DNA of 64,000 nt, taken from assembly GCF_001280425.1 (NCBI RefSeq), contig NZ_LIUF01000001.1:352945-416944 (forward strand), in the 5' to 3' direction. Position numbers and translations under genes: made by a program. Below are positions 5,206-41,665 of this stretch, piece after piece (the stretch's first letter is position 1; every line of letters starts with the position of its first letter). This DNA comes from Haloarcula rubripromontorii. Its GTDB lineage: Archaea > Halobacteriota > Halobacteria > Halobacteriales > Haloarculaceae. The notes beneath the pieces were generated by a model, which ran no database searches, was not told the origin of the DNA, and saw only the letters and a program-made list of their open reading frames with translations.

Positions 5206-6726
5206 ATGCGCAGACGTGCCCTCCTCGCGTCGGTCCCGGGAGCGCTGGCCGGACTCGCCGGCTGTTCGTTCGGCACTCTTGACTCAGGCGAGACTGCCGA
5301 CGTAACGCCCGCTCCGCGCCCGACGCAGTCAGCGACCGATGCGAACGACAGCGGGACAGCGACGCCGACGGACGCCGAGGACCCGCCGCGACCGGACGAC
5401 CCGACGACCGTCATCGAATTGGTAACCGGGCCGCGAACCTACGCCCTCAGCTCACCGGGACTCTACACTGACGACGGGGCGCGAGTCGGACTCTGGTTCG
5501 ATCAGACGGCGACCGATGACCATCCGGCCACGCTTCGCGGCTGGCTCCAGAACGGCAACGAGTTCGAGAACACGTTCAGGATTGAGTGGCTTCCGGGCGT
5601 TGGACAGACACACAGCCGCCAGCCAGGCAGCTACAGCCACGAAGCCCGCCTCCATTTCGCGCCCACGGACAACAACGAACTTGCCGACGAAGTGCCCTCA
5701 CTCGGCCGAACAGACGAGGGATACTGGCGCGTCGACGACGTCGGGCCATGGATGCCTGACACCCACCGACTGGCCCCCGGAGAATGGGTCCAGCTGGAGT
5801 ACGCCCTTGTCGGCGAACCGGGGCAGTTCGAGCGGCCGACCGGGACCTACGAATTCCGCGGTCGGGACGGGCCACTCTCGGTCTCCGTCTGGGATACCCA
5901 AAGTCCCGGCCCGGAAACAGAGTCCCGGTTCACTGGCCGCTCGCTCCCGCCGTTTCCCGACGACGACCGTGTCCAGTGGTTCCACGAAGCAGATAAGACG
6001 ACCCCAGCCTTCGTTCGACCTAGTACTGAGCGGGCGGAACTGGATGCACAGGTCGGCTTCGTGATGGTTAACAACAGCCACGAGCGACTGCAATGTGGCC
6101 ACTGGGACCTCTACAAACTGGTCGACGGCGAGTGGTTCCACATCGCGCCAACAGTCCACACCGCGGACTGTCGCCTCCTGTCACCGGGCAGTCAGGAACA
6201 GTGGGGGCTCCGGGCATTCAACGGACAGGCAGTCGGGTGCAGCACCGGCGACTGCCACTGTGACGGTCTCACGCAAGCATACCTCGGCGGCGGCGAGTAC
6301 GCCGTCGTCGCCGGCTACGGGCACGCGAGGGCCAACAGCGGTGCGCTAGTCGAATTGGCCGGCGACCGCGCTACCGTGACGCCAACCGACGGCGTGTCGA
6401 CGGCGCGCGACGGCGACACTGTCACCGTGACGACTGGCCGTCACGGCGATGGGGCGCGTTCTGCCGACGCGACATTCTCGCTGACTCGCACCGATAGCGC
6501 GGGCGAGCAGGTGCTCGCCGAACAGGTGATGGCGAGCGGTCGGTTTGCCACGTCCGACGGCGGACTTCGCAACGCCCTCCCGTTCCTAACAGACGATGTG
6601 TCCCGGGTCGTTGTCGATACCGACGAGCGGGCCGTCGACGGCGTACTCGGATACGATTCCAACAGTCGACGGTTCCAGTTCCGCGGACAGGCGTACGAAG
6701 CGACTCGAGGCCGGGCCGACAGCTGA
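5206..6726 (+). CDS. Exported lipoprotein, unknown function
   Basis: 506 residues. The N-terminus MRRRALLASVPGALAGLAGC is a signal with a lipobox cysteine; a Thr/Asp/Pro-rich linker (residues ~30-65) follows, typical of haloarchaeal surface lipoproteins. The body has two beta-rich segments: ~70-230 (EFENTFRIEWLPG, GTYEFRGRDGPL) and ~280-430 (HERLQCGHWDLYKLVDGEW). The second holds a Cys-rich stretch (VGCSTGDCHC) that could form disulfides or bind metal. ATG at 5206 was chosen because it starts directly at the signal peptide and has a TATA-like element ~27 bases upstream. I do not recognise a family. Confidence 0.8.
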   Translation: MRRRALLASVPGALAGLAGCSFGTLDSGETADVTPAPRPTQSATDANDSGTATPTDAEDPPRPDDPTTVIELVTGPRTYALSSPGLYTDDGARVGLWFDQTATDDHPATLRGWLQNGNEFENTFRIEWLPGVGQTHSRQPGSYSHEARLHFAPTDNNELADEVPSLGRTDEGYWRVDDVGPWMPDTHRLAPGEWVQLEYALVGEPGQFERPTGTYEFRGRDGPLSVSVWDTQSPGPETESRFTGRSLPPFPDDDRVQWFHEADKTTPAFVRPSTERAELDAQVGFVMVNNSHERLQCGHWDLYKLVDGEWFHIAPTVHTADCRLLSPGSQEQWGLRAFNGQAVGCSTGDCHCDGLTQAYLGGGEYAVVAGYGHARANSGALVELAGDRATVTPTDGVSTARDGDTVTVTTGRHGDGARSADATFSLTRTDSAGEQVLAEQVMASGRFATSDGGLRNALPFLTDDVSRVVVDTDERAVDGVLGYDSNSRRFQFRGQAYEATRGRADS

Positions 6727-6773
6727 TACTCGTGTGGCGGCCTCTTTGCTTCTCAGTACCGTAGTTGAAAAAG

Positions 6774-6846
6774 TGGGCCGGCGCGAATTCGAATCGCGGT
6801 TACGGCCACCCGAAGGCCGAAGGATACCAGGCTACCCCACCGGCCC
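6774..6846 (-). tRNA. tRNA-Pro(CGG)
   Basis: The minus strand folds into a full cloverleaf: acceptor GGGCCGG/CCGGCCC plus discriminator A, D arm with GGTA, anticodon stem CGGCC/GGCCG with loop TTCGGGT (anticodon CGG, decoding CCG), variable TAAC, and T stem CGCGA/TCGCG with loop TTCGAAT. No intron. CCA is not encoded. The gene sits in the gap between a lipoprotein gene and a NUDIX gene. Confidence 0.95.
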
Positions 6847-37774: not shown

Positions 37775-38932
37775 ATGACACGAGAGCAGACCACGTTTTC
37801 ACGACGAGCGGTGTTACGCCACGGGACAGTCGCTGCCGGTGTGCTGGGATTCACAGTGGGCACAGCGAGCGCAGCGACGACAGTTTCCGGAGGCGGCGAC
37901 GCGCTACAGACAGCCATCGACGACGCGAGCGACGGCGAGACGCTCACAGTCGGCGATTCAGCGACGTACGACCCTATTGTCGTCGACGTTGAGGTGACAA
38001 TTGAGACGAGTGCGAGTCCGACAATCGAGGGGGATGGCGGGACTGACGCGGCGGTGAGTGTCAACGCAGACGGCGTCAAGCTTGACGGGTTCACCGTCAC
38101 GAATCCGGGTGGATTGCTCGGCGTGAAAGTCGGGCGCGGCTACGACGACACGACCCTCAGTAACAATACAATCGAAGACATCGGCCCGACCGGCCGGCTC
38201 GGCGTGACCGGCGTCGTCGTCGGTCAGGGCGACCACTCGGGCATCGAGATCGTGAACAACACGATTCAGAACCTCGACCAGGAAACGACGGACGATTCGG
38301 GGTTCCCGACGGTCAACGGGGTACTCTTCGACGCCGACAACAGCGACCCTGGGACCGTGAGCGACACCACGGTCAACAACAACACGATTCGAGACATCGA
38401 GAGCGACATCGCGCCGCTCGGTATCGTCGTCCAGCACGAGACCGACGGCGTCGACATCAACAACAACGAGATTCGGGACCTCGAAGCCGCGGACGATACC
38501 GACTCTGACCCGTCCGACAGCGTGGACTTCGACTTCACGTTCGCACAGGGCATCAACATTGCATCGCCCTCGACGAACGAGACCACCATCGCCCACAACG
38601 TCATCGAGGACATCACCAGCGCGGAGACGATTCTTCCGGAAGCGGTCAAAATCGACGGTGACGGGGGTGGCCTGACGTTCCGGTCCAACCAACTGCTCGT
38701 CGCGGTCGGGCTGAACAACCGGAACGGGACCGACAGCGGGAATCGCGACCCGTCGAGCGACCCACAGGTCGACGCGAAGAACAACTACTGGGGGAGTCGC
38801 AAAGGGCCAGAAGAAGCCGATTTCAACCTAGACGCGGACGACGACGAGCGGAGCGATGTCGTCGGTAACGTCGACTTCGAGCCGTTCCTCCGGAACCCAC
38901 CGGGCGGGAAGGGGCGCGGCCCCAACAACTAG
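37775..38932 (+). CDS. Secreted right-handed beta-helix protein
   Basis: 385 residues. A Tat signal (SRRAVLRHGTVAAGVLGF, then SAA cleavage) is followed by a repetitive region of ~22-residue coils with NN/NT turns (NNTIEDIG, NNTIQNLD, NNTIRDIE, NNEIRDLE, HNVIEDIT), the hallmark of pectate-lyase-like beta-helices (PbH1/NosD type). The C-terminus has NYWGSRKGP, usual in such proteins. Probably a cell-surface or extracellular carbohydrate-binding or -cleaving protein; no catalytic residues can be assigned. Confidence 0.85.
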   Translation: MTREQTTFSRRAVLRHGTVAAGVLGFTVGTASAATTVSGGGDALQTAIDDASDGETLTVGDSATYDPIVVDVEVTIETSASPTIEGDGGTDAAVSVNADGVKLDGFTVTNPGGLLGVKVGRGYDDTTLSNNTIEDIGPTGRLGVTGVVVGQGDHSGIEIVNNTIQNLDQETTDDSGFPTVNGVLFDADNSDPGTVSDTTVNNNTIRDIESDIAPLGIVVQHETDGVDINNNEIRDLEAADDTDSDPSDSVDFDFTFAQGINIASPSTNETTIAHNVIEDITSAETILPEAVKIDGDGGGLTFRSNQLLVAVGLNNRNGTDSGNRDPSSDPQVDAKNNYWGSRKGPEEADFNLDADDDERSDVVGNVDFEPFLRNPPGGKGRGPNN

Positions 38933-38984: not shown

Positions 38985-39620
38985 ATGCGATTTGGCGTCG
39001 ATGAGGCTGGGAAAGGGCCGGTTCTGGGGTCGATGTTCGCTGCTGCTGTCAAGGCCGACCCGGCAGTCCTACCTGACGGTGTCGGTGACTCGAAAGACAT
39101 CAGACCGGAGCGACGCGAGCGGTTGGCCGAGGAGATCCGCGAGTTGGCAGACGCCGTCGGCGTCGCCGAGGTCCCGGTCGAACGTATCGACGCCGACGGC
39201 ACGGACATGAACACGCTGACCGTCGACGCGCAGGCGGCGGCACTCTCGGAAGTGGCCCGAACCGGCCTGTCGGGGACGGTCGACGCCGGCGACACCGACG
39301 CGGCGCGGTTCGGCCGCCGGGTCGCGGACGCGGTCGAGGCTGATGTGACCGTGCGGGCAGAACACGGGGCCGACGAGACGGACCCAGTGGTCGGCGCGGC
39401 CTCCATCATTGCGAAGGTGGCCCGCGACACACACGTCGCGGAACTGGCCGAGGAGTACGGCGACGTGGGGTCTGGCTATCCCAGCGACCCGACGACGCGA
39501 GCCTTTCTCGCAGAGTACGTGGACCGCCACGGCGAGTTGCCGGGGTGTGCCCGCCGCTCGTGGTCGACGTGTGACGACGTGCTGGCGGCGGCGGAACAGG
39601 CGTCGCTGGGCGATTTCTGA
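38985..39620 (+). CDS. rnhB: Ribonuclease HII
   Basis: 211 residues. FGVDEAGKGPVLG is the N-terminal active-site motif (D-E pair), and VGAASIIAKVARDTHV holds the third region. It cuts RNA of RNA/DNA hybrids, including single ribonucleotides in DNA. The start at 38985 is 28 bases after TTTTTAC, a possible TATA box; the longer upstream frame overlaps the beta-helix gene and is rejected. It converges on the candidate structured RNA. Confidence 0.93.
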   Translation: MRFGVDEAGKGPVLGSMFAAAVKADPAVLPDGVGDSKDIRPERRERLAEEIRELADAVGVAEVPVERIDADGTDMNTLTVDAQAAALSEVARTGLSGTVDAGDTDAARFGRRVADAVEADVTVRAEHGADETDPVVGAASIIAKVARDTHVAELAEEYGDVGSGYPSDPTTRAFLAEYVDRHGELPGCARRSWSTCDDVLAAAEQASLGDF

Positions 39621-39639
39621 ACGAGAGACCCCGACAGAG

Positions 39640-40000
39640 GCGGTGTGGAGTCGGACGGGAGCTGTTTTCCACAGCCCGTACGGCCCTTCCAGCATGTGTC
39701 CGACTGTAGCCGGACTCTCACCGGCCTCGCCCGTTCGGGCTTTACCCGGGCTCGCACCGGGTTTTGTCGATGTGCTGGGTTCCCGAACGCCACTTACGTG
39801 ACATCCGGTAGTTGGCCTTCGCACCGGTCCGGCCGGCCGGGCCGGCGGTGGGCTGGTTCGGTTCTCCTTCGGAGCGTTCACCTCGGAGTCGTGTGACGGA
39901 CCGCTCGGTTGTTGCCCCCAACGCGTCCCGTTCCGTCCAGTGTGGACAGTCTGAGACCCGTCGTCCGATGGCTCCCCGCATCTGGCGGGATGTGTACATT
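39640..40000 (-). ncRNA. Candidate structured RNA between rnhB and secD
   Basis: About 360 bases of dense secondary structure without coding sense. Minus-strand helices (plus coordinates): 39655-39679, 9 pairs with a 2-base bulge and GGAAA loop; 39709-39725, 5 pairs; 39729-39740; 39744-39762, 6 pairs; 39805-39827, 5 pairs; 39864-39874, GAA loop; 39911-39922. GGAG plus UCGGAC near one end can pair with 39963-39975 at the other, closing the fold. Loops on the minus strand are purine-rich (GGAAA, GUAA, GAA), favouring that strand. A TATA-like box lies at 40010-40017. I looked for RNase P and SRP signature sequences and found none, so no family is named. Confidence 0.55.
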
Positions 40001-40009
40001 GGAGCCGTG

Positions 40010-40017
40010 GGATAATA
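40010..40017 (-). promoter_or_regulatory. TATA-like box for the candidate RNA
   Basis: TTATTATC on the minus strand in an AT-rich patch. A start ~25 bases downstream falls at about 39985, just before the first helices of the structured region. Confidence 0.45.
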
Positions 40018-40108
40018 AGTCAATCTAAAAGAATTTGGTAATTCTTCACATGAAAATAGTTGGCACTGGACTACCAGAGACAGCAGCTAAAAGACGGGCC
40101 GCGAGCGG

Positions 40109-41665
40109 TCAGTCCTCGTCCAGCACGAGACTCCGAAGGATATCACCGTAGGCCGGCCGTGTCACGAGCACACCGATGAGGACGCCCACGATGGTAATGA
40201 TGGCGAACCCGGAGAGGTCACCGAGCGAGAGGACCATCAGCGGGCTCATGGCGACGATGGTCGTCGCCGCGGCCGCGCCGATGACCCAGAACGCCTTGCG
40301 GAAGCGGCTCTGGAACACGCGCCCGGTCTCGACTTTCCCCTGCTGGAGAATCTCGTCGGCGATGATGATGAGGTCGTCCACCCCCGTCCCGATGACCGCG
40401 ATGAACCCGGCCAGATGCGAGAGGTTCAGCGGATACTGGACGAAGGCGACGAACCCGAGGAGGATGAACACCTCCGACAGCGCCGTGACGATCATCGGCA
40501 GGGCGACCTCGGGCCGTCCGTACCGGAGATACACCACCAGGCTCACTGCGATGACGGCGAGAATGCCCGTCAGGAGGGAGCGCTGCTGGAACTCCTGAGC
40601 GAGCGCAGACGAAAGCGTCTGGCTTTCGGCGTTGTCAAAGTTGAGCGGAGCCGGCAGCCGGCCGGCCTTCAGCGCGAGCTCAAGCTCAGTCGCTTCAGAC
40701 ATATTGCCGGTCTGCATAATGAACTGCGGGTTGTTGACGAACTCACCGTTCTGGTAGGACTGGCCAAGTCCCGGGTCGACGCCGCCGACGAACACCGGCT
40801 CGCCGTTCAGCGTCGTCACCAGACAGTCCGCCTGCGAGTTCTGGAGGTTATCGTGGTCGTAATCCGAGCGCCGGCAGGTCGACCCGCTACCGAAGCCGGC
40901 CTCGACCATGTCGTTCGCGTAGCGCTCGGCCACACTCTGTTTGACCGTTACGGGAACGTGCGTTCCCTGCGTCTCGGTTCGCTGTGCCGACCCGATACCG
41001 GCGAAGTCACCCTGTGAGAGGACCTGCTCGCGGACGTACGAGCCGTTCTCGGTGTTGTCGTGGACGGCGTACACGCGGACGACGCCACGCTCTTCAAGCA
41101 GACCGATGAGTTCCTCGCGCCCTCTGTCCGGGGCCGTGACGCTGATGAAGCTCCGACCGCCCGGCGAACTGACTTGCTGCACGGAGCCCCCTGTTAACGC
41201 TGATTCGCGTAGTTTGTCGTTGATGACCGATACCATATTCTCCCGGGTTTCTCGTGTCACGCCGGGCCGCACCTCGTTCGGCTGGTACCCTTCTGCTTCG
41301 AGTGCAGACTCGACCTCCGAGGTGGTGACATTGTTCGAGAACACCTCGACGGTTTCGGTCCGATTCGAGACGCGCACGTCTATCGGGTCAAGGCCCAGAC
41401 GGTCCGCCATAGATTGGGCAAGATCAGCTTCGTCAGCGGGCGCAACGTCGACCCCTTCAGCAGTGGCACCGACGATTGGGGCCTGAATGCGTGTGCCACC
41501 GCTGAGCTGAATGCCGTACTGGAGGTTCGTCGTCTGGTTGGCGGCCCCGGCCCCCTCAGTATCCGATGTCCCGGGCGGAACACCAGGGATGAATAGCGCG
41601 ACAGCGCTGAGTAACAACAGTGAGACCAGCGCAACAACGCGCCAGTTCTCCTTGAGTGTACTCAT
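40109..41665 (-). CDS. secD: Protein-export membrane protein SecD
   Basis: 518 residues. First helix ~8-27, a large exterior domain (~30-340) containing LQYGIQLSGGTRIQAP, and five more helices at the C-terminus with GTGVDDLIIIADEIL and RVFQSRFRKAFWVIG, the RND-type signatures. With SecF it uses the ion gradient to assist late steps of Sec export. Its start overlaps the secF stop by 4 bases; secF-before-secD order is typical of haloarchaea. Confidence 0.95.
   Translation of the reverse strand: MSTLKENWRVVALVSLLLLSAVALFIPGVPPGTSDTEGAGAANQTTNLQYGIQLSGGTRIQAPIVGATAEGVDVAPADEADLAQSMADRLGLDPIDVRVSNRTETVEVFSNNVTTSEVESALEAEGYQPNEVRPGVTRETRENMVSVINDKLRESALTGGSVQQVSSPGGRSFISVTAPDRGREELIGLLEERGVVRVYAVHDNTENGSYVREQVLSQGDFAGIGSAQRTETQGTHVPVTVKQSVAERYANDMVEAGFGSGSTCRRSDYDHDNLQNSQADCLVTTLNGEPVFVGGVDPGLGQSYQNGEFVNNPQFIMQTGNMSEATELELALKAGRLPAPLNFDNAESQTLSSALAQEFQQRSLLTGILAVIAVSLVVYLRYGRPEVALPMIVTALSEVFILLGFVAFVQYPLNLSHLAGFIAVIGTGVDDLIIIADEILQQGKVETGRVFQSRFRKAFWVIGAAAATTIVAMSPLMVLSLGDLSGFAIITIVGVLIGVLVTRPAYGDILRSLVLDED

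Follow-up and report, generated by a model that had tools for sequence, protein, structure and literature searches.

A non-coding gap between rnhB and secD in Haloarcula rubripromontorii appears to encode, on the minus strand, an RNA of a family that is well supported as structured by comparative sequence analysis, is undescribed, and is found almost exclusively in haloarchaeal genomes that also carry HARP, the protein-only (RNA-free) RNase P. The RNA-HARP link is strong, with phylogeny only partly corrected, and is new relative to the preliminary description of this DNA, which had suggested a structured, undescribed minus-strand RNA and is borne out in that by the lack of an Rfam match, the conservation of the gap and strong covariation. 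We propose the name HARP-associated RNA for the family. The reading preferred here, to which we give a probability of about one half, is that of a HARP-dependent client or partner RNA, likely bound by HARP, which would trim the 5' end down to the base of the terminal helix.

The locus and the RNA gene

The window, that is, the whole stretch of DNA analysed, comprises 64,000 nucleotides (nt) of Haloarcula rubripromontorii (GCF_001280425.1, NZ_LIUF01000001.1, positions 352,945-416,944, forward strand). The gap between rnhB and secD, described earlier as some 490 non-coding bases, measures 488 nt and contains no credible coding sequence. Its features and flanks, in positions of the window, are the following.

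38986-39620, plus strand: rnhB (ribonuclease HII), flanking gene (TIGR00729, 162.8 bits)
39630-39992, minus strand: predicted gene of the RNA, some 360 nt long (from alignments A1/A5, RNAalifold and the spacing to the promoter)
40012-40029, minus strand: conserved promoter block TTTAGATTGACTTATTAT, kept in the alignment of L002-L016
40012-40021, minus strand: TATA-like box GACTTATTAT, inside the promoter block
40109-41665, minus strand: secD, flanking gene, with the RNA downstream of it on the same strand (NF006215, 781 bits)

The promoter block is conserved through Haloarcula and Halapricum-type relatives, and the TATA-like box, which the preliminary description had already placed upstream on the minus strand, lies within it at the expected spacing. 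Because the box precedes the predicted start by about 25 nt, the RNA is taken to begin near 39990 and to end near 39630 on the minus strand, promoter and terminal helix together indicating the likely ends, and it is probably transcribed from its own promoter. The earlier choice of the minus strand as the structured one agrees with folding against dinucleotide shuffles of the gap, in which the minus strand reached z = -3.9 with 0 of 100 shuffles as good, whereas the plus strand was not better than its shuffles (z = +0.25). Between the TATA box and the RNA start, imperfect palindromes such as TATGATGTGACGTATCATA are seen in several relatives (L084, L085, L119 and others), their placement being operator-like (columns about 58-82 of alignment A5), and a GGTAACGTAC-like motif recurs across families in the same interval.

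Covariation and the fold of the RNA

Double-sided compensatory changes were found in 49 of 90 consensus pairs among 26 close relatives, in 30 of 33 core pairs among 81 diverse relatives, and in 41 of 56 pairs in a full-length alignment of 34 short-form relatives, the last of which backs the terminal helix and the outer helices. For the core (81 sequences), 548 compensatory cells were observed against 165.5 in shuffles, and 91.6% of cells were paired against 70.6%; none of 500 shuffles was as high on any measure, and the signal was lost in controls with slid partners. The architecture predicted from these alignments is a long helix between the 5' and 3' ends, enclosing a multi-branched core whose joints are near-invariant and rich in purines, its parts (all on the minus strand) being given here from the 5' end, with the 3' partners last.

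39972-39989: terminal helix P1/P1b, 5' strand CCCGCCAGATGCGGGGAG, pairing with the 3' end (test of cognate against swapped ends)
39962-39968: P2, 5' strand TCGGACG, partner 39651-39657 (compensatory changes)
39921-39961: P3 hairpin, of differing length between families (8 pairs, 6 with double-sided change)
39869-39920: P4-P4a-P5 domain (core model A4, helices 1-4)
39864-39867: P6, 5' strand GGAG, pairing with CTCC at 39658-39661 (long-range pairing test)
39859-39867: near-invariant GGAGAACCG, containing the P6 5' strand
39850-39856: P7, 5' strand CCAGCCC, pairing with GGGCTGT at 39671-39677 (long-range pairing test)
39824-39845: P8 hairpin (core helix 5, 8 of its 9 pairs changed on both sides)
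39804-39822: near-invariant GCGAAGGCCAACTACCGGA, running into P10
39783-39808: P10 hairpin (core helix 6, 9 of its 10 pairs changed on both sides)
39709-39761: three small hairpins, P12-P14, as an optional insert (alignments)
39653-39677: 3' conserved block GGGCTGTGGAAAACAGCTCCCGTCC, with the P7 and P6 3' strands, the start of the P2 3' strand and an unpaired GAAAA
39651-39657: P2, 3' strand CGTCCGA, partner 39962-39968 (compensatory changes)
39630-39650: terminal helix P1/P1b, 3' strand (test of cognate against swapped ends)

Two of the helices suggested in the preliminary description fared differently. The long-range closing helix, put forward there as a possibility, is real: the 5' and 3' ends of the same RNA pair at a mean of -22.0 kcal/mol, whereas swapped ends reach only -14.3 (p = 5e-5 by permutation), the terminal helix being about 10-17 nt long among relatives. 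The stem rated best, nine base pairs with a GGAAA loop in the region 39650-39680, is unconserved, with 72.5% of cells paired and shuffles doing equally well; its bases are instead divided between two long-range helices with 96.8% pairing, a level that none of 500 shuffles reached, and covariation thus rules out the GGAAA hairpin as a component of the fold. The P12-P14 insert is present in Haloarcula and near relatives, absent in L024-L026 and many other relatives, and elsewhere missing or swapped for segments of other lengths.

Comparison with known RNAs

No known family accounts for the gap RNA: Rfam 15 (4227 families) gave no match to the window at gathering score, permissive E-values gave only chance matches in the gap (E 2.8 and 4.7), and no family matched the RNA loci of the relatives, including those outside Halobacteriales. 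Archaeal RNase P RNA (RF00373) resembles it in being archaeal, several hundred nt long, multi-branched and closed by a long-range helix, and archaeal SRP RNA (RF01857) in size class and in end-to-end pairing as the closure. The preliminary description had found signature sequences of neither in the gap; both true genes lie at other loci of the same genome, and the gap RNA has no detectable match to either model. The RNase P RNA is found at position 582053 of contig C1 with 136 bits (gathering cut-off 84 bits), a whole-genome search with RF00373 returning nothing at the gap even at E up to 10, and the sole SRP RNA match of the genome, on contig C5, scores 208.6 bits (gathering cut-off 96.5 bits).

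Type III toxin-antitoxin RNAs are made up of short repeats in tandem, which precede the toxin gene and share an operon with it. They share with the gap RNA that a structured RNA is encoded near a nuclease gene, but the gap RNA is a large, unique, single complex RNA, and wherever HARP adjoins it, the two are on opposite strands. Another group of haloarchaeal noncoding RNAs, the circular omega-RNAs of IS200/IS605 elements (PMC12558985), are possible ligase-made circles, as the gap RNA could be too, yet no TnpB or transposase is among the recurrent neighbours of the latter. That the RNA belongs, unrecognised, to a known class, be it RNase P, SRP, TnpB omega-RNA, a riboswitch or a 5' leader, would be in keeping with its RNase P-like size and complexity; given the Rfam results, the RNase P and SRP genes elsewhere, the lack of a transposase among the recurrent neighbours and a downstream gene that varies or is convergent, it is extremely improbable.

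The literature searched, consisting of the main texts of openly accessible papers, holds no account of the RNA, and the haloarchaeal transcriptome papers examined report no expression of it in their main texts; an earlier survey of structured RNAs mentions no haloarchaeal motif.

Distribution and genomic neighbourhood

At the DNA level, relatives turned up in 48 of the 146 genomes searched in the window's family. The gap is conserved, the RNA being syntenic between rnhB and secD in the Haloarcula relatives (L001-L013) and adjoining other genes in other genera; regulation of secD or rnhB in cis was rejected on the grounds of these changing neighbours and of the position of the RNA, which follows secD on the same strand. 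A covariance model of the 153-nt core (R1) matched 117 of 392 Halobacteriales genomes, with E-values down to 4e-42. Three marginal matches were dropped, and the 114 RNA-positive genomes used in further counts represent 45 genera and 11 families. A second model, rebuilt from a diverse sequence set (R2), extended the family beyond Halobacteriales by three relatives, whose cores align clearly. It is rare for a multi-branched RNA this large, strongly covarying and present in some 30% of the haloarchaeal genomes sampled, to belong to no known family.

Some genomes carry more than one copy, either in tandem (L074:5122-5271 and 5566-5714; L066:5198-5295 and 5358-5498; G190:C288:2004-2255) or far apart on one contig (G381, G432 and G361). 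Phage, viral and plasmid origins were each considered and rejected: no phage matched, the lone IMG/VR match (15.9 bits) overlaps an HNH-like open reading frame (ORF) and was judged to be chance, and a plasmid search returned only a copy on a Halorussus megaplasmid and a chance match in Streptomyces.

Across 60 loci from diverse families, the commonest neighbour of the RNA is a PIN_5 protein, and no other gene family repeatedly adjoins the RNA across several families. This neighbour is HARP (PF08745, 266 bits; TIGR03875 above cut-off). The RNA-adjacent proteins match seven solved RNA-free ribonuclease P sequences (E 6e-39) and retain acidic PIN motifs, for example DSREDFDLL and TEDTGI. HARP lies within about 250 bases of the RNA in at least 24 RNA-positive genomes, always on the opposite strand and mostly 90-210 nt from the core. 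It is found on the 5' side of the RNA in some families and on the 3' side in others, and RNA and HARP have therefore been juxtaposed more than once.

Adjacency goes with the absence of the Rnl3 ligase. Among genomes that have both RNA and HARP, the two are neighbours in at least 23 of the 45 without ligase, against 2 of the 61 with it, a tally that combines the listed positions (19 and 2) with four further genomes (G228, G276, G321 and G333). Two Halorarius genomes outside the 392-genome sample (G065 and G066) likewise have the RNA next to HARP and no ligase. The genes for RNA, HARP and ligase all sit together at G157:C74:7725-9866 and at G216:C3:576991-579141, the ligase gene lying between the other two in G216. 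In the window's genome, HARP and ligase sit side by side on another contig, away from the RNA. HARP sequences are nearly identical between an RNA-positive and an RNA-negative Haloarcula genome, so no change in HARP marks the RNA carriers there. In Halorussus halophilus, RNA and HARP are found on a 532-kb plasmid (L154, NZ_CP044524.1, 418514-424620), the RNA occupying an unannotated gap beside WP_158059337.1, annotated as 'RNA ligase partner protein'; the pair may therefore move horizontally. The genome with the tandem copies of L066 (G147) has two HARP genes.

Co-occurrence with HARP and the Rnl3 ligase

HARP is present in 106 of the 114 RNA-positive and 57 of the 278 RNA-negative Halobacteriales genomes, with 8 genomes having the RNA only and 221 neither (odds ratio 51), and it accompanies the RNA in all three RNA-positive genomes outside Halobacteriales, two of which have a ligase above cut-off. 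Six of the eight exceptions are incomplete genomes. When the Rnl3 ligase, scored by TIGR01209, is included, the 392 genomes divide as follows.

RNA, HARP and ligase: 61 genomes
RNA and HARP, no ligase: 45 genomes
RNA, no HARP, no ligase: 8 genomes
HARP and ligase, no RNA: 56 genomes
HARP, no RNA, no ligase: 1 genome, 85% complete
Ligase, no RNA, no HARP: 1 genome
None of the three: 220 genomes

Among HARP-positive genomes, the RNA thus occurs in 45 of 46 without ligase, against 61 of 117 with it, and only 1 of 163 has neither ligase nor RNA, from which it follows that HARP is retained in company with at least one of the two, ligase or RNA. A tie of the RNA to the ligase rather than to HARP was rejected as the weaker association (odds ratio 4.5 against 51). 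Kinship was corrected for coarsely, by genus-level tables and one-per-genus draws. The association of RNA and HARP persists when counted by genus (both 42, RNA only 3, HARP only 17, neither 33; p = 7e-10) and within the window's genus, Haloarcula (10, 0, 7 and 9; p = 0.004). The relation between RNA and ligase in HARP-positive genomes, drawn as one genome per genus and ligase state, has a median p of 0.005 and a worst of 0.024. A re-search with R2 of 40 of the 57 HARP-positive, RNA-negative genomes, which scores pre-selected candidates only, gave just two marginal matches (E 0.04 and 0.1), so the absence of the RNA from these genomes looks real, and HARP can therefore do without the RNA where it has the ligase.

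The pairing of HARP with Rnl3 has been described before, with the ligase in 665 of 751 HARP genomes (Seshadri and Gopalan, mBio 2025, PMC12153264). As far as the available portion of that gene co-occurrence survey goes, it raises the question of why certain HARP genomes are ligase-free and leaves them largely unexplained, and its main text mentions no partner RNA. The HARP concerned is the same, as is its patchy spread in haloarchaea, and the ligase link is reproduced here; what the present data add is an RNA that covers nearly all ligase-free HARP genomes in Halobacteriales.

Possible relationships between the RNA and HARP

Since the RNA is nearly always found in HARP genomes, it is a testable candidate partner or substrate of HARP. 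HARP recognises the elbow of pre-tRNA and is sensitive to stem length there (PMC9051087). By analogy with pre-tRNA, which is cut at the acceptor stem, HARP would most likely bind the RNA and trim the 5' end back to the base of the terminal helix, after which RNA and protein would work together, or HARP might be required simply for maturation of the RNA; where Rnl3 is present, it could seal the juxtaposed ends into a circle. Against such a client or partner role stand two nearly complete RNA-positive genomes without HARP (G144 and G178) and the 57 genomes with HARP and no RNA, and, with a terminal helix of variable length, a fixed HARP ruler is at most a conjecture. HARP knock-outs, according to the accessible part of PMC12153264, had no phenotype in two archaea, with no growth phenotype in Haloferax volcanii, a HARP-positive, ligase-negative species that is predicted to carry the RNA. 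A wider proposal, which we advance tentatively and consider possible rather than probable, is that HARP in halophilic archaea is a ribonucleoprotein with a dedicated large RNA that substitutes for or complements the Rnl3 ligase. If true, this would supply the missing cellular role of HARP, and as the RNA is near-constant in those genomes and often lies beside HARP, a specific and cheap test in laboratory strains is at hand.

The main rival to a client or partner role fits the same presence-absence rule and holds that HARP, a PIN nuclease of the VapC group, cuts cellular RNA at some cost and requires an antidote, either Rnl3 resealing the cuts or the RNA occupying HARP as a decoy. The near-absence of HARP genomes with no safeguard of either kind (1 of 163) speaks for it, as does the placement of the RNA gene beside HARP mainly where the ligase is absent, and a toxin-antitoxin idea for HARP and the ligase is raised in the part of PMC12153264 available. 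Yet 61 of the 106 genomes with RNA and HARP have the ligase as well, the two genes are far apart in many genomes, and several hundred structured bases exceed the needs of a decoy, so that we regard an antidote role as unlikely, though deserving of serious attention. Distinctly unlikely, in our estimation, is the absence of any direct link, with RNA and HARP retained or lost together through ecology or shared ancestry and their adjacency inherited: the distributions do partly follow clades, the strict one-per-genus test reaches only p of about 0.005, and in Haloarcula the RNA adjoins secD rather than HARP, but the adjacency occurs in several families and on both sides of the RNA, the association holds within a genus, and the same pairing recurs outside Halobacteriales. 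The dependence of the RNA on ligase absence among HARP-positive genomes, together with unpaired joints as near-invariant as those of large ribozymes, would also suit an RNA enzyme or ribonucleoprotein that replaces the ligase by rejoining or modifying HARP products; this is very improbable in view of the genomes that hold both RNA and ligase and of a sequence that bears no sign of catalysis.

Other features of the window

Upstream of rnhB, at 37775-38932 on the plus strand, lies an ORF of 385 amino acids with repeated NNTI / NNxI motifs, of right-handed beta-helix type by eye, which recurs in L002 and partly in L005 and was not found beside most other relatives. The sole tRNA of the window is tRNA-Pro(CGG), at 6773-6846 on the minus strand.
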